A stretch of 64,000 nucleotides of DNA from Crossiella equi (GTDB lineage: Bacteria; Actinomycetota; Actinomycetes; Mycobacteriales; Pseudonocardiaceae): the NCBI RefSeq assembly GCF_017876755.1, contig NZ_JAGIOO010000001.1, positions 1 to 64,000 on the forward strand, read 5' to 3'. A model generated the notes under the pieces. That model was not told the origin of the DNA, made no database searches, and was given only the letters and a program-made list of their open reading frames with translations. Both the position numbers and the translations under genes were made by a program. This document shows positions 2,452 through 23,413 of this stretch, in pieces. Positions within the stretch are counted from its first letter, which is position 1. Each line of letters opens with the position of its first letter.

Positions 2452-3846
2452 CTACCTGTCGGCCTGGTTGCCCTCGTGCAGCTCCGCACGGCGTGAACAC
2501 GCAGGGCACCGGAGCTCAGCCAAGGTGAAGCGGCGGCGCCACCATCGTTCCTGCCCGGTCCAGCCGCAGTGCGTGCACCGGTACTGGGTCGTGAACGCGC
2601 TCACGTCACGCTGAGGGACCTCGGGCAGACGCGGCCGGAACCCCGTGAGCAACACGGGCATGGGCGCCGGTGGCTCGGCTGCGGCCGGGATCGGTGCCAG
2701 TAGGCGAACCAGGTTGGTGAGCTCCAGGTCATCGATCTCCTCGGCGCGGAGGTGGCCCAGGACGTGGCGGAGACGGCCGTCCGGTCCCGCGGCTTGGAGG
2801 CGGAATTCCAGGAGGATCTCGTGCACCTCGCTGCGGGGTGTGCCGATCCGGGCCGCGATGGCGTGTTCGGTGCGCTGGGCCTCGGTCAGCTCGTCGTACG
2901 GGGGGATGCCGGCGTGCTGGGCGACCAGGTCCGCCTGCTGTGGCCCGAGCTGCAGGATGTTGAGGATCGAGCCCCAGGCGCCGACCGGGAGCGCCGGGTC
3001 AGCAGCGGGTTGTTCGGCGGCGTCGATGGCCGCCTCGTCGGCACGGCGGTCGGTTCGATCCGAGGTGGCCAGGTGGATGTCGGCGCCGTCGCGTTCGATG
3101 CGCTCGGTGTCGAGCCCCGTGCGGTTCAACGAGCGTCGCGGGCGGGTGTACCGCTCGTCGTTGAGGTCGGTGAGGGTGAAGGCGCCGTTGGCCTGCGCGA
3201 GCATCTCGGTGTAGGTCGGCTCCCGGTCGAGCTGGTCCACCAAGGTGGCGCGCACGGCGGCGATGCGCCGGAAGCGCCGGTACACCTTGGCCGGGATGGC
3301 CACCTGGTAGAGCAGCAGGGACATCTCGCGGTGCACGTGCTCCTCGATCCACTGCCGCAGGTAGTGCGGCCCGGAGCACCGGTCCGGGTCGTAGGCCCAG
3401 ATGCCCTGGGCGACGGCGGCGCGAGCGATGCACAGCAGGTCGGCGAACTCCGCGATCGGCGTGCGGTCCACGGTGCGGCTCGCCATGGGACGGAGGACGC
3501 GGCGGATCAGCGGTTCGGCACGATCCACGAGGTGCGCGGTTACCACGTCGCCGACCATGCGGCGGTGAACGAGCTCGCGGCGTTGGACGGGATCGTTGAA
3601 CGCCTGCTGGGCTGCATCCCAGTCAAGCTCGGCGGCGAGCTTGCCCCGGGTGACGAACGCGGGTGGCGTACCGCTGCCCGCTCGCCACTGGTCGGCGTGT
3701 TCGCCGATGTGGAGTACGAGGTGCGCTCGGTGACCGTCGGTGGCGATCGGCGCAAGCGCGGCGAGGGTCTGGGCGTCCAGTGCCGGGTGTGCCGCGCAGA
3801 GGTGGCGGGTCTCCGCCAGCCCGAGGCGGCGCAGAATCGTGCTCAT
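2452..3846 (-). CDS. Sigma-70-family-like protein with C-terminal zinc ribbon
   Basis: 464 residues from ATG 3846, which overlaps the stop of the upstream ParA-like gene in an ATGA. The middle (about residues 120-200) follows sigma-70 regions 2 and 3: DLLCIARAAVAQGIWAYDPD resembles the DLxQEGxxGLxxAxxxFDPxxG core, followed by YLRQWIEEHVHREM (the WIRQAI helix) and a VRATLVDQLDREPTYTEM segment like the region 3 GREPTPEE helix. The N-terminal 100 residues are unique. The C-terminus carries CTHC and CPAC pairs about 25 residues apart, a four-cysteine zinc ribbon. A region 4 helix-turn-helix was not obvious. It is a good candidate for an element-specific sigma factor that could read the repeated GCGTTACCTG motif, but this is inference. 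Confidence 0.65.
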   Translation of the reverse strand: MSTILRRLGLAETRHLCAAHPALDAQTLAALAPIATDGHRAHLVLHIGEHADQWRAGSGTPPAFVTRGKLAAELDWDAAQQAFNDPVQRRELVHRRMVGDVVTAHLVDRAEPLIRRVLRPMASRTVDRTPIAEFADLLCIARAAVAQGIWAYDPDRCSGPHYLRQWIEEHVHREMSLLLYQVAIPAKVYRRFRRIAAVRATLVDQLDREPTYTEMLAQANGAFTLTDLNDERYTRPRRSLNRTGLDTERIERDGADIHLATSDRTDRRADEAAIDAAEQPAADPALPVGAWGSILNILQLGPQQADLVAQHAGIPPYDELTEAQRTEHAIAARIGTPRSEVHEILLEFRLQAAGPDGRLRHVLGHLRAEEIDDLELTNLVRLLAPIPAAAEPPAPMPVLLTGFRPRLPEVPQRDVSAFTTQYRCTHCGWTGQERWWRRRFTLAELRCPACSRRAELHEGNQADR

Positions 3847-5159
3847 GGCACCTCCTGAGGTGGGGTTGGCGACGTTCGCCGGTAGGGCAGGAAGCGCCGG
3901 CGCACGCGGATCTCGCGGCGGCGGGTGCCGTCGCGGTGCAGGCTCGGCAGCAGCTCGGCAACGTCGTCGTTCAGCACGGTGACGCAGCCGGGGCCGACCA
4001 CCGCTTCGAGCAGCAGCGTGATCCCGGCCGCCCACCGAGCGTTCGTCCTCAGCACCTCTGGGGAGGGCCCGGCCGTCGGCGTGTGTTCGCGGTCGGCCCC
4101 GATGTCGGGCAGGTGCTGGAGCACGGTGAGCCCGTGGCCGGGAAGCGAGGTGCGACTCCCGGCAGCCGCTTGTGGTTCGGCTCGGGTCCACACCAGTCCC
4201 GCGTACTGGCTCGGGAAGGCGTGTCCGGATGTGCCGCACAGCGCAGCCAGTTCGGACTCGAGCCCGGACTCGGTGGTCCGCGTGCGATCGGCGAGGTACA
4301 GCACCTGGCTGGTGAACTCCAGCACCGCGTGCTCCACACCGTCCAGGTCCCAGCGAAGGCGGCCGAGGTCGACGACCACGACGTCGTAGTAGCCGCTGAG
4401 CGTGTCCAGCGCCCGGACCGCTGCGGCGGGCTCGACGAGCCGCGCCTCGGGTGGGGTGCTGACGCCGGTGAACAAGTCGAGCCGCCAGTCCGTCAACGCC
4501 ACGGCGTGGCGGTGGACGGTGTCGAGGTCGAAGTCCGGCTCCAGAAGGAAAGAGGACGCCGAGCGCGGACTCGTCGCGCTCACCGCGCCCAGCACGCCTC
4601 CAGCCATGTCCAGGTCCAGCAGGCACACCTTCGCGGAGGTGGTAGATCGGGCGGCGAGGCAGGCGGCCAGCGACAGCGCGACGGTCGTGCAGCCCGCTCC
4701 GCCACGTCCGGCGGTGATGACGACGATGTGCGGCTCGTCGACCCGACGGCTACTTCCCGCTGCGGTTTCCGTGCTCGTCAGTGCGACGGAGGCGATCAAG
4801 TCGAAGAGGCGCGCGGGCTCAGGTCCCGCGGCTTCCCAGCGGTGCACCACCGCGCGGTCGGCGATATCGGCCAAGTCACCGGCTTGACCCGTGTCGACGA
4901 GGACCGCGACAACGGAGGGCTGCCCGCCCATCAGCTCCAGCCAAGCGCGCACGTCGGCAGCTGGGCCCGAGGTGTCAGTGATGACGAACACGAGCGGCCG
5001 GCCACCTTTGATCACTGGCTCCGCGCCCTCGGTCATCATGCGGAGCTGCGCGGTGTCCTCGGCCACGGGCTCCAGGTAGCAGTCCACTGTGGACTGCTGG
5101 AGGCCGAGGACGACCGTTTCGCTCGGCAGTCCGCAGATGACCAGTCGCGGGAGGTTCAT
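3843..5159 (-). CDS. CpaE/TadZ- or ParA-like ATPase
   Basis: 438 residues from ATG 5159. The N-terminal 130 residues look like a receiver-type domain (ITDTSGPAADVRAWL, VVAVLVDTGQAGDLADIAD), as in CpaE/TadZ proteins. The P-loop half starts near residue 147 with the deviant Walker A TAGRGGAGCTT and continues with CLLDLDMAGG and VVVDLGR, typical of the MinD/ParA superfamily. CpaE-type ATPases localise secretion or pilus machinery at the pole. No other tad genes are in view, so a partner role with the nearby SecA-like or secreted proteins, or a partition role, is equally possible. Its stop overlaps the start of the sigma-like gene, indicating translational coupling. Confidence 0.75.
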   Translation of the reverse strand: MNLPRLVICGLPSETVVLGLQQSTVDCYLEPVAEDTAQLRMMTEGAEPVIKGGRPLVFVITDTSGPAADVRAWLELMGGQPSVVAVLVDTGQAGDLADIADRAVVHRWEAAGPEPARLFDLIASVALTSTETAAGSSRRVDEPHIVVITAGRGGAGCTTVALSLAACLAARSTTSAKVCLLDLDMAGGVLGAVSATSPRSASSFLLEPDFDLDTVHRHAVALTDWRLDLFTGVSTPPEARLVEPAAAVRALDTLSGYYDVVVVDLGRLRWDLDGVEHAVLEFTSQVLYLADRTRTTESGLESELAALCGTSGHAFPSQYAGLVWTRAEPQAAAGSRTSLPGHGLTVLQHLPDIGADREHTPTAGPSPEVLRTNARWAAGITLLLEAVVGPGCVTVLNDDVAELLPSLHRDGTRRREIRVRRRFLPYRRTSPTPPQEVP

Positions 5160-5182
5160 GTCCTCGTTGGTACTCGTGAGGG

Positions 5183-5203
5183 GGCAACGAAAATCAAGGT
5201 AAG
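5183..5203 (-). promoter_or_regulatory. Degenerate element motif (CTTACCTT)
   Basis: On the minus strand CTTACCTT is followed five bases later by TCGTTG, about 35 bases upstream of the ParA-like gene at 5159. It is a weaker relative of the GTTACCTG-N5-GTGTCC pattern. Confidence 0.35.
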
Positions 5204-5234
5204 TACGGCGGGATTCAACACATCCGGTGACGTG

Positions 5235-6071
5235 CTACTCGAACGCCAGCAGGCACAGGTGCTCCAGCGCGTTGCCGGCCAACGGCACGTAGTCCATCAG
5301 CGAGTCGAGACTGCGGCACGAGGAGTTGGATTCCGCCAGCTCCGTCGGAAGGACCGGATGAGTTGGCGGCTGCCGGGGCCGTTCCACCCGCTGCTGGTGC
5401 TGATCGAGGAGCGCTTGCGGTGGGTTGTCGGGCAGCTGGCGCAGCCGGTCGCGGAAGAGGTTCGGGTCGAGCGGGGTTTGTTCCCGGTAGGCCATGCCCA
5501 CGGGCCCGTTCATGCAGAGCCCGCCGGAGCCGGGCTTGCCGAAGGACTTGGTCGTGTCGGCGGCGTGCTCGGTGATGCTCGACCGGCAGGCGTCGACCGC
5601 GGCGGCACGTCCGCGGATGAAGGCGGCCGGATCGATCGCGCGACCGCCGGAGACTTCGGCGAGGCTCGGCATCGCCATGAGGCTTGCCGCGAACCGGGGC
5701 CCGGTCCGCGGTGCGGGCAGCCAGTCGCGGTCAGGTGTCCGGGAGCTGGACCGGCCTCCCGGTAGTCCGGCGCGTTGGAGCAGGTCGGATTCGGCTTGGA
5801 AACTGGTGAGCGCGGTGTCGAGCTGGGCACGCCGTGCCTGCTGCGTGCGTGAACTGTCCGCGAGCATCGGCTGCAGGCGGGACGCTCGTGCCTTCGCCGC
5901 CAGGAGCTCCAGGTAGGCCTGTTGGCGCCCGGCGAACGAGCCGAGGTCGTCCGCAGCTGGTGCGGCGGTCTGATCGGGCTGTGCCGAGACCGATACGGGC
6001 ACGGCGACGATCAGCGCGAGCGACATCGCCAGGGATGCCAGGAGGAGTTGTGGTACTGGCTGGTGGGACAT
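5235..6071 (-). CDS. Secreted protein of unknown function
   Basis: 278 residues from ATG 6071, chosen because GGAGG lies six bases upstream; a TTG at 6077 overlaps the previous stop. A clear Sec signal peptide covers residues 1-32 with a SVSAQP-like cleavage region. The mature part has a helical, Ala- and Gln-rich N-terminal half that may form a coiled coil, then a Pro-rich stretch, and six cysteines, several spaced as in an oxidised extracellular protein. No family was recognised. It follows the lipoprotein gene at 6074-6481 with a 2-base gap, so the two are probably co-translated and may act together outside the membrane. Confidence 0.7.
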   Translation of the reverse strand: MSHQPVPQLLLASLAMSLALIVAVPVSVSAQPDQTAAPAADDLGSFAGRQQAYLELLAAKARASRLQPMLADSSRTQQARRAQLDTALTSFQAESDLLQRAGLPGGRSSSRTPDRDWLPAPRTGPRFAASLMAMPSLAEVSGGRAIDPAAFIRGRAAAVDACRSSITEHAADTTKSFGKPGSGGLCMNGPVGMAYREQTPLDPNLFRDRLRQLPDNPPQALLDQHQQRVERPRQPPTHPVLPTELAESNSSCRSLDSLMDYVPLAGNALEHLCLLAFE

Positions 6072-6073
6072 GT

Positions 6074-6481
6074 TCAACCTCCGTTGCGTTGTTGTGGGGT
6101 GGACTGGACGGTGGCCATCGCGGTGGCGATGCGCTGTCGCGCACGGCGCGCAGCCCCGACGTCGCCGACTCGAGCGGCACCCTCCAGCGAGGCGTAGGAG
6201 GCGGCGAGCTCGGCCGTGCCGGCCGTCGCGGTCACGGCGCGCAGTTCACTGGCACGCCGCCAGCCCTCCTGCGCGACCGGCACCAGCGCCGCGAAGTAGG
6301 TCTGACCGTCATCGCCGGGGTGCCGGGGTTCCCCAGCGGAGAGCGCCGCGAGGCGGACCTCGACTGCGGCCAGTTGCCGCACGGTCTCGGCGGGGTCGGG
6401 TGCTGTGGTGGGTGCGCAGCCCGCGAGCACGACGGCGACGAGGGCGAGGGCGAGGGGAGCGGAATGGTGACGATTGACCAT
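6074..6481 (-). CDS. Small lipoprotein
   Basis: 135 residues from ATG 6481. The N-terminus has a signal peptide ending in a lipobox LAGC (cysteine at residue 22), so the mature protein should be lipid-anchored on the outer face of the membrane. The remainder is predicted helical, rich in Ala and Arg, without known motifs. GTTACCTG ends seven bases before the ATG and there is no ribosome site, so the transcript may be leaderless or nearly so. Its stop codon abuts the secreted-protein gene at 5235-6071. Confidence 0.7.
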   Translation of the reverse strand: MVNRHHSAPLALALVAVVLAGCAPTTAPDPAETVRQLAAVEVRLAALSAGEPRHPGDDGQTYFAALVPVAQEGWRRASELRAVTATAGTAELAASYASLEGAARVGDVGAARRARQRIATAMATVQSTPQQRNGG

Positions 6482-6488
6482 GCCCGTT

Positions 6489-6500
6489 CAGGTAACACGC
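6489..6500 (-). promoter_or_regulatory. Element motif next to a start codon
   Basis: GCGTGTTACCTG read on the minus strand, with nine bases between GTTACC and the ATG at 6481. This short spacing suggests a leaderless transcript and a -10-like role. Confidence 0.6.
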
Positions 6501-6506
6501 GGACCG

Positions 6507-7358
6507 TCAGTTGGGGCGGGCTCGCCAGCGCACGCGGAACGTGGTTCCGAAGTGTTTGCCGGTCAGCACGAACTCGTCCGTCCCGGGCACCGCGGCGATG
6601 CCGTTGAGTACGTCGTCCGCGGCGACAGGGCGCTCGATCTCGGCGAGCCGGCGGACGTCGGCGACCGCGGTGACCAACCCGGTCCGGAGGTCGATCCGGA
6701 GCAGCTGCTTCGACAGCCAGATGTTCGCCCAGACCGTGCTGCCGGTGCACTCCAGCTCGTTGAGGTGCTCCACGCGGACGCCGTCCGGGCGGCGGACGAC
6801 CAGGTCGCCTTCGGCCTCGAAGGTCCGGGCGTTCCGGAACACGAGGCGGTCGCCACCGTCGGAGAGCACCAGGCGGTTGCCGTCGAAGCAGACGCCCCAG
6901 CCCTGGCCGGGGTACCGGACACGGCGGTGTTCGGCCAGGGTTTCGAGGTCGCGGAGAACCGCGACACCGTCCCGCCAGGTGAGTTGCCAGAGGCCGACCC
7001 CGGGTACCGCGGTGATGCCCATGCCGTAGAGCGGGGCGGCCAGGACCGCCTCCCGGAGCACCTTCCCCGTAGTCAGCTCAACGAGCCGAACCCGCGATAT
7101 TCCCGGCAGACCGGTGCTCTCGAGGAGGCCGCCGGACGTGAACTCCAAGCCCTGGGTGAAGGCATCGCGGTCGTGCGGGTACTCGCGCAAGACCTCCGGT
7201 TCGAGCACTTCGAGCTTAGGCGCCGCCGACGTGGTCGGTGGTGGCGTTGGTGGACCTCCAGGTGCGGCCGGGGAGGTGGGCGCGCCAGCCGAGGTGGTGC
7301 AGGCGGACAGCAACGCGACGGTGGCGCACAACGAGGCGCCGAAGTTCCTGGCTTCCAT
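6507..7358 (-). CDS. Glutaminyl-peptide cyclotransferase-like lipoprotein
   Basis: 283 residues from ATG 7358. A lipoprotein signal (LLSACTTS, lipobox Cys about residue 20) and a Pro/Thr/Ser-rich linker precede a domain that follows the bacterial/plant glutamine cyclotransferase pattern: HDRDAFTQGLEF, ESTGLPGISRVR, LTWRDGVAVL, YPGQGWGVCFDG, LSDGGDRLVFRN, HLNELE and WANIW. These are blades of a five-bladed propeller. The enzyme converts N-terminal glutamine to pyroglutamate, protecting secreted proteins from aminopeptidases. Here it would act on the cell surface. GTTACC ends nine bases before the ATG with no ribosome site, as for the lipoprotein at 6074-6481. A surface cyclase inside a mobile element is unusual. 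Confidence 0.82.
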   Translation of the reverse strand: MEARNFGASLCATVALLSACTTSAGAPTSPAAPGGPPTPPPTTSAAPKLEVLEPEVLREYPHDRDAFTQGLEFTSGGLLESTGLPGISRVRLVELTTGKVLREAVLAAPLYGMGITAVPGVGLWQLTWRDGVAVLRDLETLAEHRRVRYPGQGWGVCFDGNRLVLSDGGDRLVFRNARTFEAEGDLVVRRPDGVRVEHLNELECTGSTVWANIWLSKQLLRIDLRTGLVTAVADVRRLAEIERPVAADDVLNGIAAVPGTDEFVLTGKHFGTTFRVRWRARPN

Positions 7359-7365
7359 ACCTGCA

Positions 7366-7376
7366 CTGGTAACGCG
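7366..7376 (-). promoter_or_regulatory. Element motif variant (CGCGTTACCAG)
   Basis: Nine bases separate GTTACC from the ATG at 7358, the same spacing as at the lipoprotein gene 6074-6481. Confidence 0.55.
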
Positions 7377-7390
7377 CCGCACTCGGGGGT

Positions 7391-7425
7391 GGGTGTGTGC
7401 CGCCGTCCAGCAGCGGCACACACCC
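7391..7425 (-). terminator. 13-bp perfect hairpin terminator
   Basis: GGGTGTGTGCCGC pairs perfectly with GCGGCACACACCC around a nine-base loop, immediately downstream of the gene ending at 7437 and upstream of the next promoter motif. Confidence 0.7.
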
Positions 7426-7436
7426 GATGTTCCGGC

Positions 7437-7892
7437 TCAGGACTGCATCTGCTGCGCTGCGGCAGGCGGTTGGGGGACCGGCGTGCGAGGTGCCTGAGGC
7501 ACCGGAGCGGTGGGCCCAGCAGGATTCGGCGGTGCGGACAGGGCGGCGATGGCTCGCCTGGTGTTCCCGCCTTCCTGCCGGATCTCCTCGCACAGGGCCT
7601 GGAACATGCGTTCCACGCCCCGAATCGCGGCCAGCACATCCTCCTGCTGGGGACCGTCACCGCTCGTGCGCAGCTGCTGGCGCAGTTGAGCGGCCTTGAG
7701 CCCCATCTCGTACGCGTTCCGCGCCGTGCTCAGGTCGAGCTGCTCCTGGATGCGACGGGTGGACGAGCTCGCGCGCGAGTACCTGAGTGCGGCCACCGCC
7801 CCGGCGGCGAGGATCAGCACTCCGATGACCGTGCCGATCACGAGCCCGGCGATCGAGGACGGTGACAGGGGTGGGTACATCGGGTTCGGCAT
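7437..7892 (-). CDS. Membrane-anchored protein with Pro-rich tail
   Basis: 151 residues from ATG 7892, with GGAGGAG eight bases upstream. Residues about 13-36 (SIAGLVIGTVIGVLILAAGAVAAL) form one transmembrane helix. A charged helical region (RRIQEQLDLSTARNAYEMGL onward to GNTRRAI) follows and probably forms a coiled coil. The last 30 residues are Pro/Ala/Gln rich. No family recognised. It has its own element motif about 57 bases upstream and its own strong terminator, so it is monocistronic. Confidence 0.75.
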   Translation of the reverse strand: MPNPMYPPLSPSSIAGLVIGTVIGVLILAAGAVAALRYSRASSSTRRIQEQLDLSTARNAYEMGLKAAQLRQQLRTSGDGPQQEDVLAAIRGVERMFQALCEEIRQEGGNTRRAIAALSAPPNPAGPTAPVPQAPRTPVPQPPAAAQQMQS

Positions 7893-7948
7893 GACGTTCT
7901 CCTCCGTGAGGCGTGGATGGCGGCCGAGTTCGGAACACCACGCCCAGT

Positions 7949-7960
7949 CAGGTAACGACC
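7949..7960 (-). promoter_or_regulatory. Element motif (GTCGTTACCTG)
   Basis: GTTACCTG on the minus strand about 57 bases upstream of ATG 7892. Confidence 0.6.
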
Positions 7961-7969
7961 CCGAACCCC

Positions 7970-8563
7970 TCAGCCCAGGTGATCTGGCGAGTGCGACGCA
8001 GCGTCCTGGGGAGTGAGGATCACGGCAGCCCCAAGTTCGGCCAGTGGCCCCCGCTTCGTCGCCTTGGTGAAGTTCCGGTCTGAGGTGACGAACACGTGGT
8101 TCCCGGCCCGGATGTGACAGTGCAGGGCAAGACCGTCGAGCCGCTTGTTCCGCCAGCGGCTTTCCTCGCGGGAACGTTCCTCGCCGTCGAGAGCGTCCGG
8201 GACCGCGTCCCGGTAGTCGAACGGCGTGGGGAACAGCACCTCGTGGATCTGCCGAAGGAGGTTGTCGTCCCCTTCGGAGGCGGGGACGCACCAGTCGAGG
8301 TAGACGAGGTCGAGGACCATGACCGGCCGGATCAGCTCGATGTGCTCAAGGCTGGCGGCAGCCAGGCGGTCGAGCAGGGAGGAGATGCTCGTGGCCACCG
8401 TGCCGTCCGTCTGGGTTTCGGCCGCCATCGTGGCGGCGAACTCAACCACCGCTTCGCCCTGGCGGTGCCTGGCCAGCAACTGGCGTACGGCAGACGCTTC
8501 GGGCCGCTCCTCTTCGAGCGCGATCAAGCAGTTCGTGTCCAGGGTGAAGGTTGGCGCGGACAT
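7970..8563 (-). CDS. PIN-domain-like ribonuclease
   Basis: 197 residues from ATG 8563. The N-terminus FTLDTNCLIALEEE has the first acidic residue of a PIN nuclease, and the C-terminal HVFVTSDRNFTK matches the last conserved acidic block. An acidic/helical middle lies between them. PIN proteins are Mg-dependent RNases, most often the toxins of VapBC modules. The preceding gene (8563-8841) starts upstream and overlaps it as TGATG. It could act as antitoxin, but it does not look like a typical VapB or Phd protein and carries cysteines. Toxin, host-defence or element-stability roles are all possible. Confidence 0.7.
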   Translation of the reverse strand: MSAPTFTLDTNCLIALEEERPEASAVRQLLARHRQGEAVVEFAATMAAETQTDGTVATSISSLLDRLAAASLEHIELIRPVMVLDLVYLDWCVPASEGDDNLLRQIHEVLFPTPFDYRDAVPDALDGEERSREESRWRNKRLDGLALHCHIRAGNHVFVTSDRNFTKATKRGPLAELGAAVILTPQDAASHSPDHLG

Positions 8564-8841
8564 CAGGTTGCCACGTCGTAGGCGCCTGGACGCACCTCGG
8601 CCTGCCTCGGCGTGGGACCGGTGAATGTCAGCCGCCAGGTGCGGGCCTGGGTGTTCGCGCCTGCCTGTGCGCAAGCCGGGCAATCGACCTTGATCGAACC
8701 GCTCGACGCGACGGCGCGGAAGTGCTCGATCCGGAGTGGGTGCAGGCCGAGGCGGCACTGACCGGGCAGGACCGCGGTGCCGGAGTGGCCACGGCGTAGT
8801 GCGGTCTCGGTGAGACGGGCTGGCGAGGTGGAGGGGGCCAT
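8563..8841 (-). CDS. Small Cys-containing protein preceding the PIN gene
   Basis: 92 residues from ATG 8841. The visible features are one early cysteine (GQCRLG), a CPAC pair and a nearby histidine, which could bind a metal, and a basic N-terminal half. No family recognised. The stop overlaps the PIN gene start as TGATG, so the two are translated together and may form a toxin-antitoxin-like pair. GTTAGG ends eight bases before the ATG, so the transcript is probably leaderless. Confidence 0.6.
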   Translation of the reverse strand: MAPSTSPARLTETALRRGHSGTAVLPGQCRLGLHPLRIEHFRAVASSGSIKVDCPACAQAGANTQARTWRLTFTGPTPRQAEVRPGAYDVAT

Positions 8842-8847
8842 GCGAGG

Positions 8848-8858
8848 AACCTAACATC
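8848..8858 (-). promoter_or_regulatory. Degenerate element motif (GATGTTAGGTT)
   Basis: GTTAGG lies eight bases from ATG 8841. It may be a degenerate copy of the element motif or a plain TAnnnT (TAGGTT) -10 box. Confidence 0.35.
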
Positions 8859-8993
8859 TGGATCGAACAGGTGTTCGAGATTGCTGGTCGGCGCGCGCGA
8901 CCTGATCGGGTGAGGACATGGAGCGTGTCCGGTTGGCCACGCCGTGTGCATACGGTCGTCCAAACTGGACATTGCCAGTGGAAGGACAGCCCT

Positions 8994-9752: not shown

Positions 9753-9767
9753 CCGGCAGGCTCGCGC

Positions 9768-13804: not shown

Positions 13805-13814
13805 GCGTTACCTG
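13805..13814 (+). promoter_or_regulatory. Element motif (GCGTTACCTG)
   Basis: 38 bases before ATG 13853. It is followed by TCTGGAGTAAC, so GTTAC and GTAAC form a small inverted pair. The 277-base gap 13576-13852 otherwise holds no convincing gene. Confidence 0.6.
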
Positions 13815-16003: not shown

Positions 16004-17550
16004 CACGAGACCTGCCCGCCGAGCTCCGGGAAGTACTCCTGTAGCTGCTCGTCGGTGACGGCCGCCCCGAAGGGCAGCGAGCCCAACGCGGGCTTGCCCC
16101 AGCCGCACAGGCCGTGCACCTGGGACAGCGCGTAGAGCGCGAGCGCCGGATCGCGGAGCAGCTTGCCGGCGAAGACGACCACGGCAATCTCACCGACCGG
16201 CTGCCCGAGAGCACGACGCTCGACGGCCTCCCGCACCGCCCGGGTTCCCCAGCTGTGCCGGAGGCCGAGCATCGGGTCCCGGTTGAGCATCGCCGCGGTC
16301 CGGCTGACGAGCTGTGCGAACTTCTCGAGCTCGTCGGTGGCGGCCGCCAGCCTCTCCGGCTGGACGAGGTCACGGTTGGCCAGCTCCGCCAAGCCCCTGC
16401 TGCCGTCCGCGAAGGCGTCGGCGGCAAGCAGCTCGGTGTCGAGCTGGCCGACCGGCAGAAGCGTCATCCGGTCGAGCCACTTGGCGCCGAAGTCGATGCT
16501 GGGACGGTTGGTGGTCGCCGCGATCACCGCCTGGCGGTGGATCGGCACGTCGATCGCCCCAGCCGTCACCGGGAAGTAGGCCTGGAGCCGGGTGGCGGTC
16601 GGGTTGAGGAGGGGCTCGATGGCGTCGAGCACGTCCAGCCGGTCCGTCCACCGGTGCAGGTCCACCAGCTCGACGACGCACGGGTGCTGCACGGCCTCCG
16701 CGAGGAGGCTGTGCTGGAGGACGGTCGCCCCGCCCTCCAGACCGACCCGGAACAGCTCGATCTGGTCCGGGCAGTTCACCGTGAGGTGCGGAACCCCGCG
16801 CTCAGCGGCGAACCGGGCCAACGTGGCCGACTTGCCCGTCCCGGGCGGCCCCGCCAGCAGGAAAACGCGCCGCCGGAGCGTGCTCAGGTTCTCCAGCTGT
16901 TGGAGGATCGAGCAGTCGGTCACCGCACCGGTCAACCTCGCCGGCTCCGGGATCCGCTCGGCCAGTTGCTCGGGCCAGTGGTAGTTGTGCAGCACGGTCC
17001 GCTCCGCCCGCACAGGCCGCAGCGCGACGACCGCACGCTCCCACTTCTCGGCAGCCGGGTCGAACACGAGCCGGTCTTCGTCGACGAAGTCCAGCGGGTG
17101 GTCCCGCTGGGTGAAGGTGCTGAACTCGGGCAGGTTGGCGAGTACCGCCTTGACGATGTCGCTGGTGGCACCCTCGAGCGTGCTGGCCGCCTGTAGCAGG
17201 ACCTCGTGGTGGTCGCACAGGCGCGCGGTGCAGATGTCGCAGGAAGCCATCTTGCCGCCGGGCTGCTTGAGGTAGAGCAGCAGCGCGGCGGGCCTTTCGT
17301 CGAGGCCGCCGTCGCGGATCCTCAGCCCGACGTAGGTGTTGCGGTCACCGCTGTCGTCGGTGAAGTGCGCCGCGAGGTCGACGGTGGTGATGCCATTGTC
17401 GTTGGTCACCTTCGCCGAGCTGTTGGCGAGGTTGGTCCACATGCTGCGCGACTTCTGGACGCGCGTCAGGTATGCCAGTCCGTCCACGTTGTGCCCTGGC
17501 GGCGCCAGTACCCGCGGTCCGGTGGACCACGAGCCGCCAGGGGGTGCCAC
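16003..17550 (-). CDS. MoxR-like AAA+ ATPase
   Basis: 515 residues from GTG 17550. Walker A GPPGTGKS is at about residue 235. The Walker B position reads CVVELVDLHRW, so the usual DE is D followed by L; the catalytic glutamate appears lost. Sensor 1 is VIAATTNRPS. The first 220 residues are a separate domain with a Cys cluster (CDICTARLCDHH, about residues 100-112) that may bind zinc. It is translated together with the VWA protein, the usual AAA+/VWA partnership. The degenerate Walker B suggests altered ATP turnover. Confidence 0.8.
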   Translation of the reverse strand: MAPPGGSWSTGPRVLAPPGHNVDGLAYLTRVQKSRSMWTNLANSSAKVTNDNGITTVDLAAHFTDDSGDRNTYVGLRIRDGGLDERPAALLLYLKQPGGKMASCDICTARLCDHHEVLLQAASTLEGATSDIVKAVLANLPEFSTFTQRDHPLDFVDEDRLVFDPAAEKWERAVVALRPVRAERTVLHNYHWPEQLAERIPEPARLTGAVTDCSILQQLENLSTLRRRVFLLAGPPGTGKSATLARFAAERGVPHLTVNCPDQIELFRVGLEGGATVLQHSLLAEAVQHPCVVELVDLHRWTDRLDVLDAIEPLLNPTATRLQAYFPVTAGAIDVPIHRQAVIAATTNRPSIDFGAKWLDRMTLLPVGQLDTELLAADAFADGSRGLAELANRDLVQPERLAAATDELEKFAQLVSRTAAMLNRDPMLGLRHSWGTRAVREAVERRALGQPVGEIAVVVFAGKLLRDPALALYALSQVHGLCGWGKPALGSLPFGAAVTDEQLQEYFPELGGQVS

Positions 17551-17627
17551 CGCCTTCCAGCGGAGTGCGGGTACGCCCTGGCGCGGGCGCCGGTGTTCAG
17601 GTACGCGTGTTGAGCTGTCAAGGAACC

Positions 17628-17647
17628 TGCCCGCGACTAGGCGGGCA
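17628..17647 (-). terminator. Hairpin in the leader of the AAA+ gene
   Basis: TGCCCGC and GCGGGCA pair around a six-base loop, between the gene ending at 17665 and the AAA+ start at 17550. It could terminate the upstream gene or act in the AAA+ leader RNA. Confidence 0.4.
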
Positions 17648-17653
17648 ACCGGA

Positions 17654-17664
17654 CAGGTAACGCG
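17654..17664 (-). promoter_or_regulatory. Element motif (GCGCGTTACCTG)
   Basis: About 105 bases upstream of GTG 17550 and directly after the stop of the preceding gene (17665). It is followed by TTGCCC in the place of the GTGTCC block. Confidence 0.6.
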
Positions 17665-18045
17665 CTACGGCTGCCGGGCAGCCTGCAACACCTCTGCGAC
17701 CTTGGCCGCGACCAAGAGCTCGTCCTCTGCGGAGAGTTGGTAGACACCGGAGATCGAGGAGCTCAGGCTGTCGACCCACTCGCGGGCATCAAACCTATGA
17801 GTCGCCCCGGAAGCGGAAGGTCGGCCAACGACCAGATCGTCCAGCGCGGCTTGACGGGAGCCAGTCGATGCCTCGTCGACCACGGGACCCGGCAGTGGTG
17901 ATCGCTCCTGCCCGTGCAGCGGTCTCAGGACGGCGAGCAGGCCGGCTTCGACCGTGTCGATCTTGGCGCCGGAGAGTCCGGCTCCCATGGCAAAGCGGTA
18001 GGTCAGCACCGAGACGAGCGCATGGGCCACGATGTGCGAATCCAC
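17665..18045 (-). CDS. Small protein of unknown function upstream of the AAA+/VWA pair
   Basis: 126 residues from GTG 18045, which has an excellent GGAGGAGGG site. Predicted mostly helical (HIVAHALVSVLTYRFAMGAGL, LSAEDELLVAAKVAEVLQAA). It contains no cysteine or known motif. It has its own element motif and lies just upstream of the AAA+ motif, so it may be an accessory of the AAA+/VWA system, but this is inferred from position only. Confidence 0.65.
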   Translation of the reverse strand: MDSHIVAHALVSVLTYRFAMGAGLSGAKIDTVEAGLLAVLRPLHGQERSPLPGPVVDEASTGSRQAALDDLVVGRPSASGATHRFDAREWVDSLSSSISGVYQLSAEDELLVAAKVAEVLQAARQP

Positions 18046-18083
18046 CGGTTGCCCTCCTCCGCCGTCACGCCGCTGGCGAACCA

Positions 18084-18094
18084 AGCGTAACGAC
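18084..18094 (-). promoter_or_regulatory. Element motif variant (GTCGTTACGCT)
   Basis: GTTACGCTTGG on the minus strand about 40 bases upstream of GTG 18045. Confidence 0.5.
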
Positions 18095-18105
18095 GGGGGG
18101 TGGGC

Positions 18106-18137
18106 GCCGCCCGTCACCGGAAGCGGTGACGGGCGGC
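18106..18137 (-). terminator. 14-bp perfect hairpin after the helicase gene
   Basis: GCCGCCCGTCACCG pairs with CGGTGACGGGCGGC around GAAG, a stable tetraloop, downstream of the minus-strand gene ending at 18176. Confidence 0.75.
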
Positions 18138-18175
18138 GGCCTGTGGTGACGGTCGTCCAGCACAGCAGAGCGCGG

Positions 18176-19819
18176 TCAGGCGGTCTCGGGCTGCCAGGCG
18201 TCAACCTCGGGGTCAACCGGCACCCACTGCGCGCGTGCAACGCGCAGCCCACCAGCGAGGTCCGGGGATGCTGGTGGCTGCACCACGTAGGACGGCAGCT
18301 CCCACAGTCGGATCTCGTGTTCCTGGACCGGCTCGGTCGGCCCCGGGACGGCAGTCGCAGCGGGTTGTTCATTCACCACGACCTGCACCTCGCCGGGGAA
18401 CTGGAAAATGCCGCCGACGAACTTGAGGGACAGCTGCCTGGTCATGACCGAGCGGCCGGAGACCCGGAGCTCGGCGTGCTCCGGCGGGTGTACCCGGCCC
18501 TCGTAGTCGCGGGCCAGCATGCAGAACACGCTCGCCGTCTCGAACAGGGCCCGCGCACCGTTGATTTCGGTCGGGGCCGGGGGTTCGAGGGTCGGACGGA
18601 CCTGTTGCTGGGTCCGGTGGTCGACCGTGACGCGCTGCGGGGCCTCCCGGCGGGCGTTGACCTGTTCGCACACGATCACGTTGCACGGCAGGCCTGCCAG
18701 GTTGGCGTACCGGCGGCCGCCGAGCCCGAACCAGCCCGGGTCGAACACCCGGAGGCTGGTGTCGGCGCCGCGGATGAACTCCTCGCAGGCGGAGAAGTCG
18801 TTGCCCGCCGCGAGCATCGAGGTGAGGTAGTCCACCAGGCAGCCGGCGAACCAGCACTGCTCGACGTCCAAGCCGTGCTGGTCGGCCCACCGGTGGTTGG
18901 CCACGGCGAACCGGCGGATCTCCGACTTCACGCTCGCCAGCCGCTTCGCCGGGTCGGTGCCTGCCCGGGCGAAGAACTCCTTCCCGAACAGCAGGTACTT
19001 CGGTCGACCGAGCGGGGTGGCCGAGCCGACCTCCTGGCCGGTAGGTAGGTACCGCTGCAACCGCGTGACCAGCTCCGCGCGGGTCATCTCGGTGCAGAAG
19101 TACACGACCTGCGCCTCCGGGGCCACGACGGCCGCGGCCGCCACCAGGCGTGCGGCCCACCAGCAGGCCAACGCGGTCTTGCCCACCTTGGTGCGTGCGC
19201 CCAGGAGCACGAGCTCGCCGAGCCAGTCCGCGCGCTGGTGCAGCAGCCGGTCCAGCGTGGGGTGCACGGGGAAGCCACGGCCGGTGCCGACGGCGGCCAG
19301 TTCGGCTCGCAGTACCTCCGCGCTGTGTGCGGCGTACGGGTCGGTGGCGACCCACTGGTCGTCGTCGGTGAGCACCAGGTCCCGGAGTTCCTGCAGGTCC
19401 TCGCCCGCCCGGTCGTTCGCGCCGGACTGGTAGTGGTGCTGGACCGACTTCAGCAGCTTCTCCACCCGCCGGTGGCGGTACCGGCGGGAGACGAGCGCGG
19501 CCAGCACCTCGACCTCGTCCGCACAGCCGGGCAGCTGGGGGTGCCGGCGCTCGGCCTCCTCGTCCCACGCCGCGATGGCGCGGTCGAGGTGCGGGTGCAG
19601 GCCCGCGTCCAGGTTGTACCGGACGCCGACCTCCGCCAGCTGCGGATATCCCTCCCGGATCGCGCGGATCCGGTCGAACGTCCGCCCGGCGGTGTGGTCG
19701 CCGAACTCCTCGGCGCCGCTGACGACCGAGCCGGTGTGCCCCTCGGCGAGTTCCGGGGCGCGCACCAGGCAGGCGATCAGCAGCAGCTCCGCGCGGTCGG
19801 CCTCGGCATCGAGGTGCAC
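18176..19819 (-). CDS. DnaB-like replicative helicase (RecA-fold ATPase)
   Basis: 547 residues from GTG 19819, which has ACGGAG seven bases upstream. The C-terminal RecA-type domain has Walker A GARTKVGKTA (about residue 205), VVYFCTEMTRAEL in the Walker B region, and LVDYLTSML. The N-terminal 190 residues (AELLLIACLVRAPELAEG, YPQLAEVGVRYNLDAGL) resemble the DnaB N-terminal helical domain. DnaB-type hexamers unwind DNA ahead of the fork. Together with the primase (25220) and polymerase (23469) genes this gives the element a replication core. The arginine finger and loop motifs are less clear, so a DnaB-derived ATPase with another role cannot be excluded. Confidence 0.65.
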   Translation of the reverse strand: MHLDAEADRAELLLIACLVRAPELAEGHTGSVVSGAEEFGDHTAGRTFDRIRAIREGYPQLAEVGVRYNLDAGLHPHLDRAIAAWDEEAERRHPQLPGCADEVEVLAALVSRRYRHRRVEKLLKSVQHHYQSGANDRAGEDLQELRDLVLTDDDQWVATDPYAAHSAEVLRAELAAVGTGRGFPVHPTLDRLLHQRADWLGELVLLGARTKVGKTALACWWAARLVAAAAVVAPEAQVVYFCTEMTRAELVTRLQRYLPTGQEVGSATPLGRPKYLLFGKEFFARAGTDPAKRLASVKSEIRRFAVANHRWADQHGLDVEQCWFAGCLVDYLTSMLAAGNDFSACEEFIRGADTSLRVFDPGWFGLGGRRYANLAGLPCNVIVCEQVNARREAPQRVTVDHRTQQQVRPTLEPPAPTEINGARALFETASVFCMLARDYEGRVHPPEHAELRVSGRSVMTRQLSLKFVGGIFQFPGEVQVVVNEQPAATAVPGPTEPVQEHEIRLWELPSYVVQPPASPDLAGGLRVARAQWVPVDPEVDAWQPETA

Positions 19820-19909
19820 ATCGTTCTCCGTCTCGTGTGGACGGCCGGACCGCGACGCGGTCACCGGCCGCGTCTCTGCTGTGGAGTTGCCAAAGGACAG
19901 TCGCTCCGC

Positions 19910-19917
19910 CAGGTAAC
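19910..19917 (-). promoter_or_regulatory. Element motif, left half of divergent pair
   Basis: GTTACCTG read on the minus strand, about 90 bases upstream of the helicase GTG at 19819. It forms an inverted pair with 19929-19936, with 11 bases between them. Confidence 0.65.
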
Positions 19918-19928
19918 GCGAACCGCGC

Positions 19929-19936
19929 GTTACCTG
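19929..19936 (+). promoter_or_regulatory. Element motif, right half of divergent pair
   Basis: GTTACCTG then, five bases later, GGGTCC, about 108 bases before ATG 20044. It is preceded by GCGC. Confidence 0.65.
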
Positions 19937-20043
19937 GAGCTGGGTCCAACCGGTGGACCAGGCGCACGTAGCGGCGTCCGGTTCGCCGGACCGCCGCCGC
20001 ACGTCGTCTCGGGACCGCCGACGAACCCAGGAAGGAGAGCGTC

Positions 20044-20631
20044 ATGGGCCGGAACGCAGCCTCGTTGGCGCACGTCGGGGCGATCATCGGGTGTGGCAGC
20101 GAACCAGCAGGTGGCGGCCACGGCAACTACTGGCTCGACAAGATCGGGGCCGGTCGGTGGCAGTGGCTCGCCGTGAACCCGGTGCACGGCACCTACCACT
20201 CCGGGCACGGCTGGCCCGTGCCAGTGGGGGAGCTGCCGCCGGGCACCGTGTTCGAGCACCGGCACCACGCGTTGTTCCTGCTGTGGGGACGGCCTGAGCT
20301 CCGTGCGGGCGAGGCGGTACCTCAGGAGGACGTCGACCAGGTCGGCACCGCGCTGGACCGGCTCGCGGGCTACGACGGTGCACAGCTCGATGCCGGACGT
20401 CCCGCGATGGTCCCGGTGCTCGACGTGCTCGTGCGTGCGCAGTTCGGCGGCATCCGCTGGTGGCTGTCCGCGTTGCACGGCGACCTGCTGGCACCACCGC
20501 CCAGGCCGGACGCCGGACTGACCAGGATCCGCAAGTACCTGGCCGAGCCGCACCTGCTCGCTGCCTGGGCAAGCCCGGACGGCACCAGGTGGGCTCGCCC
20601 GGCCGCGTTCGTCGGAGGCACGCCGTGCTGA
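20044..20631 (+). CDS. Protein of unknown function
   Basis: 195 residues from ATG 20044 with AGGAGAGCG upstream. The N-terminal half is rich in Gly, His and Trp (GGGHGNYWLDKIGAGRWQWLAVN, YHSGHGWPVPVG), the C-terminal half is helical with a RWWLSALHGDLL segment. No family recognised. It is the first gene of a probable two-gene unit, overlapping the next gene by seven bases, and shares a divergent control region with the helicase gene, so a role in element replication is possible. Confidence 0.65.
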   Translation: MGRNAASLAHVGAIIGCGSEPAGGGHGNYWLDKIGAGRWQWLAVNPVHGTYHSGHGWPVPVGELPPGTVFEHRHHALFLLWGRPELRAGEAVPQEDVDQVGTALDRLAGYDGAQLDAGRPAMVPVLDVLVRAQFGGIRWWLSALHGDLLAPPPRPDAGLTRIRKYLAEPHLLAAWASPDGTRWARPAAFVGGTPC

Positions 20632-22307
20632 AACGATCGGTCGACCGCGCGGCTCTCGCGCGCTGCGTTGAGCGGGACCTCGCTGAGCTCGACGAGCTGG
20701 GCACCGCGGTGGCCACGGCGAAGCGGTTGCGCGGACAGGTCCACCAGGCCGCGCTGCCAGCGCGGCGGAAGGTCTGCGGGTTGCACGATGCCGTTCTCGC
20801 GGTCCAGCACCGGGCCGGGGCGAACAGGACCGCGCTCAGGCAGATCCGGGATCTGCTGCGGCGCCGATCCGGTCCCGTCCGGTCGATCCGCTTGGCGGCG
20901 ATGTTCCACGACCACCTGCACGGGGTGGGCGTGCCGCCGTGTGCTCGGACGCAGGCCGTGAACGCCCTGCCGCACGGTGAGCTGGCCGAGGTGCTGGAGG
21001 CTGGGGAGAACCTCAGCTCCGCGCTCTGGTCAGAGGCGCACTGGAGGCGGGACGACTTCGCCCGGGATCTCGACCAGCTGCGGTCCTGGCTGGGCCGGGT
21101 ACCGGAACTTCGGGCCCCGGACCGGCTCGTCCTGCTCACCGACCACGGGCACGAGGTGCTGCGGCACCCGCGGCCCGCTGTGCGCGGACGGCAGCCGAAC
21201 TCGGGTGACGACGTGGAAATCCTCAGCGCGGCACAGCTCGATCTGCTGCACGCCGGGATGGTGAAGGGCTGGCATGCGCAGCGCGTGGCCGAAATGGCCG
21301 GCACCTCCACGTACCGGGCGATCGACGCCACGGTGCGGTGTGGCAGCTGGCTCCGACGCCACCTCGGGGTTCGACGGCCAACCTCCCGGCCGGTGTTCGG
21401 CCGGACCAGGATGTCCACGTCCTGGCTGGCACAACACCGAGCGGCGGCCAAGGGCGACGTACTCACCTTCGCCTGGCACTACCGGCCACAGCTGGGAGCC
21501 TGGTACCAGATCGAGCGTGGGGACGTGCTCGACCTGCTCGGCCTCTCGCCGATGGGTTCGGTCCACCACCGCGCGCTCCTGGCGCACGTCGTCGCGGGCG
21601 GGGTTCTGTCGGACTTCGCCGCGCAGGACGGTCGCCGGTACCGCGAGGTGGTCGCGGCCTGGACGGCGATGGTCGAGCACACGGCGACGCTCCAACAGGT
21701 CGAGCAGCAGCTCCTCCAACAGGCGGGCGTACTGCCCACCCGGCACGACCACGTGCGGGAGCACGCGCTGGCTGAACAAGCCCGCAGCGTTCGAGTGGGC
21801 TTGCGCACCCTCAGCCTGTCCATCGAGGACAACCTCGCCAGCAGCTACCAGGCCTTGGCGGATGCGGTGAAGGACGGTTCCTCGACCACGGCCGGGGCCG
21901 CACTGCGCGCGTACCGCGCGGTCCTGAACCGTCACCTCGCTCGAGTGCGCCGGTACCCGGTCGCCACCTCACCACTGCGGTGGGGCCGACGGGAGCTGGA
22001 GTCCTTCGAGCGGAGTCGTGGCCTGGCTGGTGCCCCGGACCTCGGGTTGAGGGCCAGGGCGATCGAAAGCATTCGTGCCGAGGTGCGCAGGCTCGGCAAG
22101 TGCGGAACATCGGGGCGGCCGCAGCCGGAGTACGAGCTGCTCACCTTGCTGCACCGGACGCTCGCCTCGGCGTTGAGGAACGGCACCGAGCCGGAGTTGC
22201 CGCTGCACTGGCGGCTCTGGCTGAGCCCCGGGGCACCCGATGCGCACGTGTGGCAGGCCTTCCAGGTCTGGCCGGACCTCATCGTGCTGGCGGCGAGCAC
22301 TCCGTGA
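20625..22307 (+). CDS. Large Arg-rich helical protein of unknown function
   Basis: 560 residues from GTG 20625, which has GGAGG six bases upstream and overlaps the previous stop. Very rich in Arg, Leu, Ala and His with long predicted helices (ERDLAELDELGTAVATAKRL, QQVEQQLLQQAG). A possible helix-turn-helix lies near residues 215-245 (LHAGMVKGWHAQRVAEMAGTSTYRAIDATVR). This suggests a DNA-binding or structural protein; no enzyme motif was seen. A hairpin terminates the unit. Confidence 0.65.
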   Translation: MLKRSVDRAALARCVERDLAELDELGTAVATAKRLRGQVHQAALPARRKVCGLHDAVLAVQHRAGANRTALRQIRDLLRRRSGPVRSIRLAAMFHDHLHGVGVPPCARTQAVNALPHGELAEVLEAGENLSSALWSEAHWRRDDFARDLDQLRSWLGRVPELRAPDRLVLLTDHGHEVLRHPRPAVRGRQPNSGDDVEILSAAQLDLLHAGMVKGWHAQRVAEMAGTSTYRAIDATVRCGSWLRRHLGVRRPTSRPVFGRTRMSTSWLAQHRAAAKGDVLTFAWHYRPQLGAWYQIERGDVLDLLGLSPMGSVHHRALLAHVVAGGVLSDFAAQDGRRYREVVAAWTAMVEHTATLQQVEQQLLQQAGVLPTRHDHVREHALAEQARSVRVGLRTLSLSIEDNLASSYQALADAVKDGSSTTAGAALRAYRAVLNRHLARVRRYPVATSPLRWGRRELESFERSRGLAGAPDLGLRARAIESIRAEVRRLGKCGTSGRPQPEYELLTLLHRTLASALRNGTEPELPLHWRLWLSPGAPDAHVWQAFQVWPDLIVLAASTP

Positions 22308-22311
22308 ACGG

Positions 22312-22340
22312 GGTGGGCGCCGGTACTCCCGGCGCCCACC
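22312..22340 (+). terminator. 12-bp perfect hairpin
   Basis: GGTGGGCGCCGG pairs with CCGGCGCCCACC around TACTC, just after the stop at 22307 and before the next element motif. Confidence 0.75.
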
Positions 22341-22346
22341 AACCCC

Positions 22347-22356
22347 GCGTTACCTG
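22347..22356 (+). promoter_or_regulatory. Element motif (GCGTTACCTG plus GTGTCC)
   Basis: Followed after five bases by GTGTCC, 42 bases before ATG 22398. One of the best-matching copies. Confidence 0.65.
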
Positions 22357-22397
22357 GAGTTGTGTCCTGCTGCTGGCACGGGAGAGGAACGATCACG

Positions 22398-22706
22398 ATG
22401 CCCACCACCGAGCTCTTGCCGGACACACCGTTCCTCCTGCACCTGAGGTTCCGTGTCCCGCTGTGGCGGATCACGCGGGGCACCGTGCGCATCGAGGCGG
22501 CCCTCACCGCGCTCGAGGTCGACGCCGTGCTCATCGATCAAGCACTCGCGGACGACCTCTTCGTGACGGTCTCGCTGCCCGCGGGAACCGTGCGCGAGGC
22601 GCTCCGCGGTGCCGAACCGACCGCACACGCCTTGCGGGCCGCGCGACGGCTCGCCGAGATGCTGTGGGACCTGGACCCGGTGCTCGTCCCGGGGAGCTCG
22701 TCGTGA
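22398..22706 (+). CDS. Small protein coupled to the second sigma-like gene
   Basis: 102 residues from ATG 22398. Two short beta-rich segments (LHLRFRVPLWRITRG, LFVTVSLPAG) and helices (EAALTALEVDAVLIDQALA, AHALRAARRLAEML). No family recognised. Its stop overlaps the start of the sigma-like gene (GTGA), an arrangement often seen for a sigma regulator or anti-sigma partner, though it has no membrane segment. The function is open. Confidence 0.65.
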   Translation: MPTTELLPDTPFLLHLRFRVPLWRITRGTVRIEAALTALEVDAVLIDQALADDLFVTVSLPAGTVREALRGAEPTAHALRAARRLAEMLWDLDPVLVPGSSS

Positions 22707-23413
22707 CCGCCGGAAGCTGGTGGCAGACCGCGCCGCTGGGGCCGGCGGGCCGCCGCGATCTCGCGCGGCTCGCCCCCAGCTTGATGACCGAGGTGCTCGA
22801 CCAGGCGATGGGCCTGGCCCGGCACGCGATCCGGGCCCAGCACTCCGCCTTGCGGGAGCTCTTGGGCGGTCCGGACGACCTGACCCAGCAGCTGCGACTG
22901 TGGATCCTGGAGGCCGCGGCGACCTACGACCCGGCACGCGGGCCCTGGACCGCCCACCTCACCCAGCGGGTGCGCCACCAGGCCGGTGACCACTGGCGGG
23001 CAGTCGTCGGGCAGTGCGCCCTGCGCCGGATACGGCGCTACCGTGCGGACGGAACTCCCCTCACCGGAGCCGAGCAGCTGCACGTTGCCCGGATCCTCTC
23101 GCTGCTGCCCGGCCGCCAGCACCAGCTGAACATCGCCGACTGCTCGGCTGACCCCTCCGAGAACCACCTCGCGGTCGAACAGAGCATGGCTGCCGGGACG
23201 GCGACCCTGGCCTACCTGCACGCGGTGGAGGCGGACGAGGAACAGCACGCCCGGCGCCTGCGGCAGGGCTTCGTGGTGCACGTCCTCCGGCACCTGCACG
23301 GGCAGGCGTTGCGCAGGATCGCGCCGTGCGGCGGCATGCACCACCGCACCAGCGCCGCGGTCGAGGAGGAGTTCCAGCAGCGAGTACGAGACCTGCTCCA
23401 ACCCCCGGGGTGA
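22703..23413 (+). CDS. Second sigma-70-family-like protein
   Basis: 236 residues from GTG 22703, overlapping the previous stop. Residues 55-100 follow sigma region 2: DDLTQQLRLWILEAAATYDPARGPWTAHLTQRVRHQAGDHW mirrors the DLxQEGxxxLxxAxxxYDPxxGxFxxYxxxxIRxxIxD pattern. The C-terminal half is helical and could contain a region 4-like HTH, but I could not assign it with certainty. It lies in an operon led by a best-match element motif. Along with the sigma-like protein at 2452-3846 it could direct element transcription. Confidence 0.6.
   Translation: MTAGSWWQTAPLGPAGRRDLARLAPSLMTEVLDQAMGLARHAIRAQHSALRELLGGPDDLTQQLRLWILEAAATYDPARGPWTAHLTQRVRHQAGDHWRAVVGQCALRRIRRYRADGTPLTGAEQLHVARILSLLPGRQHQLNIADCSADPSENHLAVEQSMAAGTATLAYLHAVEADEEQHARRLRQGFVVHVLRHLHGQALRRIAPCGGMHHRTSAAVEEEFQQRVRDLLQPPG

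Follow-up and report, generated by a model that had tools for sequence, protein, structure and literature searches.

Integrative elements of Crossiella encode a sigma-70-type protein that probably reads an element-specific promoter motif

The nearest precedent for a sigma factor private to one replicon is SigN (ZpdN) of Bacillus subtilis. This mobile-replicon sigma factor is encoded on pBS32, a LexA-controlled plasmid with a cryptic prophage, has a regulon that lies mainly on that replicon and includes DNA replication genes, and activates its own expression (PMC6751061). Here a candidate system of this kind is described from the actinomycete Crossiella equi, whose genus comprises soil bacteria, in an integrative element that lies partly within the first 64,000 nucleotides of contig NZ_JAGIOO010000001.1 (the window) and encodes two sigma-like proteins, A and B (Table 1). 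It differs from SigN in its setting in actinobacterial integrative elements, in the presence of two sigma-like proteins and in the zinc ribbon on A, and the two are likened by description, not by sequence. The clostridial UviA/TcdR/BotR group comprises plasmid or mobile-locus sigma factors that serve neighbouring promoters, with few targets in one cluster, whereas the motif considered here is spread over much of the element. A literature search, which was not exhaustive, found no account of the Crossiella element or of this promoter.

Both A and B are present in all five Crossiella genomes examined, within related large integrative elements, and the probability that these elements carry a private sigma/promoter system read by A is put at about 0.68. 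The sequence GCGTTACCT would serve as the -10 box, and CRRCCA, 13 bp upstream of it, as the -35 box, of an element-specific promoter to which A, through its regions 2 and 4, would bring the host RNA polymerase core. Related element copies, some of them partial, were found in the same genome (a second element, E2, at about 7.04-7.17 Mb) and in genomes G448 (two), G449 (two), G450 and G451. Nine motif regions were compared: W (the window), 448a, 448b, 449b, E2, 449a, 450a, 450b and 451.

Both open reading frames (ORFs) marked in the initial annotation are real, A, for which that annotation gives no strand, on the minus strand, which is open across 2452-3846 where the plus strand is interrupted by stops, and B on the plus strand. 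Scanned singly, A fell under the cut-off of the NCBIfam model TIGR02937 (E 0.011, 15.4 bits, cut-off 42.9), gave only a sub-threshold helix-turn-helix (HTH) match in Pfam, and matched almost nothing in PHROGs; an NCBIfam match to LapB, far below its cut-off, was rejected as an identity. This shortfall against curated models lowers the label that A can be given and leaves the profile evidence unaffected. The sigma likeness became visible only with a homolog profile and a structural model. At E ≤ 1, a profile of ten homologs (alignment A1) retrieved 60 PDB sequences; 58 of these are sigma factors, and all nine matches at E ≤ 1e-3 were HrdB, SigA or RpoS (best E 2.6e-4). The top alignments jointly span profile positions 86-348, corresponding to regions 2 to 4, and include HrdB 258-387 and RpoS 116-306, so that homology was found over regions 2, 3 and 4.

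The AlphaFold2 model of A (predicted local distance difference test, pLDDT, 68.3) has a sigma fold as judged by Foldseek, with SigA as the best match (6lts_F, E 4.4e-7) and 118 matches at E ≤ 1e-3; TM-scores are low (0.2-0.3), the domains being placed differently. VIA comparison with SigA gave Z 12.0 with 255 residues aligned at 19.2 Å over the flexed whole, and with SigA domain 2 (4x8k_A) Z 11.1 with 121 aligned at 3.9 Å. The C-terminal zinc ribbon noticed in the initial annotation is borne out by two CxxC pairs, near residues 421 and 447, kept in eight element copies. Set beside the primary and group 3 factors HrdB/SigA, RpoS and WhiG, A is alike over regions 2-4, and differs in having its own N-terminal part, the zinc ribbon, no Pfam domain above cut-off, and a predicted promoter of the form CRRCCA-N13-GCGTTACCT. 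By profile and model, A is a sigma-70-type factor, for which core binding and initiation are predicted. A class-wide profile search with A1 gave matches in 53 of 296 genomes; outside Crossiella and one genome of another genus (G014) these were mostly short, at about positions 134-222, and are presumed to come from host sigma factors. Searches of plasmids, phages and viral contigs detected, within their limits, no relative of A, and one genome-contig scan returned a single locus, in Crossiella sp. S99.2.

Protein B looks like a short extracytoplasmic function (ECF)-type sigma factor. Pfam Sigma70_r2 aligned with residues 57-100 of the window protein (E 1.6e-4; 21.8 bits, cut-off 24) and was matched by all eight B homologs (best E 2.3e-5). 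No NCBIfam sigma model scored above cut-off, and an NCBIfam match to octaprenyl diphosphate synthase, far below cut-off, was rejected. In the AlphaFold2 model (pLDDT 70.7), residues 1-105 fitted sigma region 2 (9a4r_A) with the highest VIA score, Z 9.7 (91 aligned, 2.4 Å); residues 157-236 fitted SigR region 4 (5fgm) with Z 7.8 (64 aligned, 2.9 Å), below the level safe for helical folds, and no sequence match to region 4 was found. Thus the sigma-like blocks proposed for both proteins could be recovered, more weakly for B. In its probable region 2 and possible region-4-like domain B would be like ECF factors of the SigR and SigH type, from which it is set apart by its Pfam score, by the lack of an NCBIfam sigma model above cut-off and by an anti-sigma partner not being identified; the product of g20, which precedes B, is a possible partner or anti-sigma factor. 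B was detected in 5 of 390 family genomes, all of them Crossiella, and no relative was found in plasmids at the limits of the search.

The common motif mentioned, and left undefined, in the initial annotation was recovered by a seedless 9-mer enrichment, in which the top words of the window were CGTTACCTG (11 seen, 0.94 expected) and GCGTTACCT (9 seen, 0.92 expected). Among the best 12 words of each region, GCGTTACCT also led in 448b and 449a and took second place in 449b, as did the variant GCGTTAGCT in 451; repeats dominated the top 12 in E2, 448a and a 120-kb tail stretch, and no motif word was among the best 12 in 450a, 450b, 014, 204 and 598. The motif was defined as GCGTTACCT, with variants beginning GTG or ending AGCT, and sites as matches to G[CT]GTTA[CG]CT. 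Of 141 such sites in the nine regions, 136 lie outside called genes and 5 inside, compared with 39 outside and 18 inside among 57 matches to three control patterns (Fisher p 2e-7). The rate of sites upstream of a gene did not differ significantly from that of the reversed control alone (36/141 versus 3/24, p 0.20); with two permuted patterns pooled in, it was 36/141 versus 3/57 (p 7e-4). This pooling was chosen after the first outcome, and the gene calls used are sparse.

In the host genome (G000; 9.44 Mb, one contig), 31 of 65 GCGTTASCTS matches fall within two motif-bearing stretches that make up about 2% of the sequence, and the reversed control gave 12 genome-wide. With both boxes required, the bipartite pattern matched 43 times across the five Crossiella genomes, against 8 for its reversed control, and 292 other genomes of the family together gave 15 matches, against about 54 (counted by hand) for that control. 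All seven of the C. equi matches lie in the second element, and among the Crossiella matches listed 34 of 36 lie in element regions. Eight weak position-weight matches in the tail stretch (four in the reversed control) were not counted as sites; a GCGTGGGGCGGAC-like repeat abounds in this stretch and is frequent in the second element region as well.

Judged by its position relative to start codons, GCGTTACCT acts like a -10 box belonging to an element-specific promoter. In seven copies (W, 448a, 448b, E2, 449a, 450a and 451) a lipoprotein gene has its ATG 16 or 17 nt past the start of the motif, and all seven promoters have CCA at -16; in 448a the motif reads GCGTTATCT. Two XRE-type HTH proteins also start at +17 (E2 7105581 and 450a 116151). 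Since an ordinary leader does not fit, transcription should start at or next to the lipoprotein ATG, about 16-17 nt after the motif start, which would put the motif at about -17 to -8 and the end of the CCA near -31. Of 22 possible starts at +15 to +18, many of those outside the lipoprotein genes are GTGs created by a GTGTCC word; the lipoprotein ATGs are the ones relied on. On the same strand as A, the lipoprotein promoter is found 2.7-5.4 kb upstream of it (19.8 kb in 449a; the 448a value is from coordinates). Because a motif promoter heads the gene row leading to A, A is probably in its own regulon, and such autoregulation would give positive feedback; the B operon also has the motif.

The elements fall into two types, type I (W, 448a, 448b and 449b), with B about 60% identical to that of the window, and type II (E2, 449a, 451 and the G450 contigs 450a and 450b), with B about 45% identical to it. 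With near-duplicate sites of related copies included in the counts, 56 of the 87 sites of type II have a CCA starting at -16 (a CRRCCA box with a 13-bp spacer), where other offsets average 2.3; in type I, 9 of 54 sites have it, and other offsets average 1.2 (Fisher p 3.5e-8). By region, the counts are 18/25 (E2), 20/27 (449a), 10/17 (450a), 4/7 (450b) and 4/11 (451) for type II, and 1/13 (W), 3/14 (448a), 3/17 (448b) and 2/10 (449b) for type I; a -35 box at fixed spacing was thus found in type II only. Type I sites have a GTGTCC word at +15 to +20 downstream, with GTG at +15 in 12 of 44 de-duplicated sites. Divergent motif pairs are separated by 4, 5, 5, 7, 7, 16 and 31 bp in type I and by 25, 35, 37, 39, 39, 43 and 44 bp in type II, so that space for a pair of -35 boxes is mostly confined to type II. 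In helix 4.2 of A, all five type II copies keep an arginine that 448a and 448b have lost. In type I elements, most promoters would have to function without a -35 box.

Relatives with the same promoter geometry and no detected B make A the likelier reader of the motif. Two genomes of another genus, G014 and G204, encode A homologs which, by alignment, lack the zinc ribbon, and B was detected in neither. In both, an orthologous prepilin-peptidase-like gene adjoining A has CCA-N13-GCGTTA with an ATG at +17; the bases between the two boxes differ. The site beside A is the sole RNCCA-N13-GCGTTA of G014; G204 has five, one of them beside A. The proposal of the initial annotation that the two proteins read the motif therefore gains support for A and leaves a possible part for B. 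A CpaB/SAF-like protein and a TadA-like ATPase, as read from sequence, lie near A in G014, which suggests that A derived from a Tad-pilus locus.

It is unlikely that B, as an ECF-like factor, reads GCGTTACCT and that A serves another promoter set. ECF promoters have the form GGAAC-N16/17-GTT, whose spacing resembles that of the motif promoter, no genome with motif-rich regions lacks B, and 449b has B without A; but CCA-N13-GCGTTA followed by ATG adjoins A in the two outgroup genomes, and among the 390 family genomes B was detected in Crossiella alone. Within a system read by A, B may serve as an additional sigma factor, either for the same promoters or for another set. That both proteins act on the motif, for example A on promoters bearing the -35 box and B on those of type I that lack it, or the two in sequence, is possible, and held tentatively: a single -10 box occurs in two promoter architectures and both proteins occur in 5/5 genomes, yet a B-specific box was not found and the two sets are not separated by gene function. 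Rather doubtful is a fuller two-sigma switch, in which a zinc-ribbon sigma-70 factor from a Tad-pilus locus and an ECF-like B would share the -10 box, the -35 box and the helix reading it would have decayed together in one lineage to leave -35-independent promoters with back-to-back -10 boxes, and expression would be insulated from the host. The motif might also bind an element-encoded repressor or activator (XRE, Crp-like or ParB-like), as an operator that overlaps ordinary promoters, and several such regulators are encoded by the element; the fixed distance to leaderless start codons, the fixed -35 spacing in type II and the mostly single, asymmetric motif copies make this quite improbable. 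Reading by a host sigma factor, for which the GCGTTASCTS matches of the C. equi genome outside the motif-bearing stretches would speak, is very improbable given that the bipartite form clusters in the element regions of Crossiella and elsewhere in the family is no commoner than its control.

Several observations weigh against a private system read by A. Since A, B and promoter type track one another through the element lineages, covariation mostly cannot separate A from B, and a comparison of domain identities of the two proteins within and between types favoured neither. Region 449b has B and ten motif sites with no A in the 130 kb fetched, though a further A occurs in that genome. There are two outgroup sites, from related genomes; reversed controls of RNCCA-N13-GCGTTA gave 4 matches in G014 and 5 in G204, so the pattern is not enriched genome-wide and the outgroup argument stands on position. 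Genomes of the same genus without A have 1-4 matches each, A itself is not directly preceded by such a site in G014 or G204, and in G204 the position-weight scan was empty, the site being found by a relaxed pattern with 3 matches in 14.5 kb. The difference between types was first noticed on the same sites that were later counted, and the helix 4.2 arginine is present in the W copy of A, where one of 13 sites has the -35 CCA, which leaves the correlation between arginine and -35 box incomplete. In C. equi, 34 of 65 GCGTTASCTS matches are scattered across the remaining chromosome, 2 of the 36 Crossiella bipartite matches listed lie outside element regions, and GCGTTASCT is absent from that half of the window element which lies past the contig origin (64.5 kb, contig 9375659-9440186). 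Both models have modest pLDDT (68 and 71) from shallow alignments, and the VIA Z values of A and B are within the range reachable by a common helical arrangement. For B, Foldseek returned nothing at E ≤ 1e-3 (best 1.9e-3), and the sigma assignment is therefore weaker than for A; the B profile gave four PDB matches (E 0.26-0.49), none of them a sigma factor.

The contig is circular, since a SecA-like ORF runs across its origin, and the att repeats bound an element of about 118.5 kb; an integrase and att repeats at a tRNA gene were thus found together. Genes common to most copies include those for a DnaB-like helicase, a PolA-like polymerase, a primase, ParB-like and ParA-type proteins, a CpaE/TadZ-like ATPase, a SecA-like protein, an NlpC/P60 protein and a 1246-aa ATPase. 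The last, 66-77% conserved in other copies, has a middle part rich in serine and threonine, a Walker ATPase at its C-terminus and no Pfam match. The element, taken as conjugative in the initial annotation, is at most a candidate for conjugation: it has the integrase, the att repeat, a replication module and the large ATPase with weak CedD similarity, but no relaxase was found among the proteins scanned, a subset of the element genes. Homologs of the SecA-like protein lie near A in six other element copies. In G450 two A copies (L061 and L062, C25) lie about 16.5 kb apart on one contig. At 43781-44728 (+) an HTH protein reads, from its sequence, like an IS630-type transposase, and it had no tblastn match in the other regions fetched.

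A structured leader RNA is repeated just 5' of start codons, with the form GCCAGGG-N-AAGGYGGUG-N-CCCUGGC-stem-CUGGCGnGCCAGG-AUG. Further copies were found in E2, 448a, 448b, 449a, 449b, 450a, 450b and 451, to give 31 pattern matches and about 23 distinct leaders. Both hairpins keep their central pairs in 31/31, and covariation is weak because the paired bases hardly vary. The CCCUGGC segment might base-pair with the first or the second GCCAGGG, and the probable ribosome site lies within the second, a riboswitch-like arrangement. Several leader copies lie about 75-130 nt below a motif promoter and others have none within reach; Rfam gave no match for the leader RNA in the window.

Table 1. Positions of features in the window (contig coordinates are given where a feature has a second copy outside it).
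Feature	Position	Strand	Remarks
SecA-like protein gene	1..1524	-	downstream of A; 541 aa to stop, continues over contig origin
Motif GCGTTAGCT	1891..1899	+	pattern match
Protein A	2452..3846	-	sigma-70-type; regions 2-4 at residues ~86-354, C-terminal zinc ribbon ~418-457; likely motif reader
CpaE/TadZ-like ParA-type ATPase	3843..5159	-	precedes A and overlaps it by 4 bp
Leaderless lipoprotein gene, 135 aa	6074..6481	-	ATG at motif +17
-10 motif GTGTTACCT of leaderless lipoprotein gene	6490..6498	-	head of gene row leading to A
-35-like box GCCCCA, lipoprotein promoter	6512..6517	-	CCA at -16 to -14 from motif start
Motif	13805..13813	+	48 nt before g14 start
Leader RNA copy	17487-17585	-	
Motif	17655..17663	-	upstream of MoxR-like ATPase/VWA genes g16-g15, with structured leader
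Motif	19911..19919	-	upstream of DnaB-like helicase gene g17; divergent with 19927
Motif	19927..19935	+	upstream of g18-g19; 7-bp gap to divergent copy
Motif of g20-B operon	22347..22355	+	upstream of operon
g20, 102 aa	22398..22706	+	overlaps B start; homologs adjoin B in other element copies
Protein B	22703..23413	+	ECF-like sigma; region 2 ~1-105, region-4-like domain ~157-236
Motif	26571..26579	-	upstream of primase-like gene g23
Motif	35571..35579	+	upstream of Crp-like g37
Leader RNA copy	about 35646-35730	+	
Leader RNA copy	36459-36546	+	
Motif	39166..39174	+	upstream of g41-g43 (g43 = large ATPase)
1246-aa ATPase (g43), Walker A	39930..43670	+	NCBIfam ser_rich_anae_1, 1184 bits; weak CedD DNA-translocase similarity
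Motif GCGTTAGCT	49624..49632	+	pattern match
Motif	51783..51791	-	upstream of small secreted-looking protein g52; divergent with 51796
Motif GTGTTACCT	51796..51804	+	4-bp gap to divergent copy
Tyrosine recombinase (integrase)	52344..53366	-	
28-bp att repeat	53969..53996		3' end of tRNA-Leu; second copy contig 9375632-9375659

If a private system read by A is borne out, these would be integrative elements that run replication, regulatory, transfer-candidate and secretion-like genes by a sigma/promoter family of their own, as phages do, and such an element could switch itself on as one unit. The paired lineages with and without a -35 box would then be a natural test case for the joint change of a sigma factor and its promoters, and the promoter may provide an orthogonal part for use in actinobacteria.

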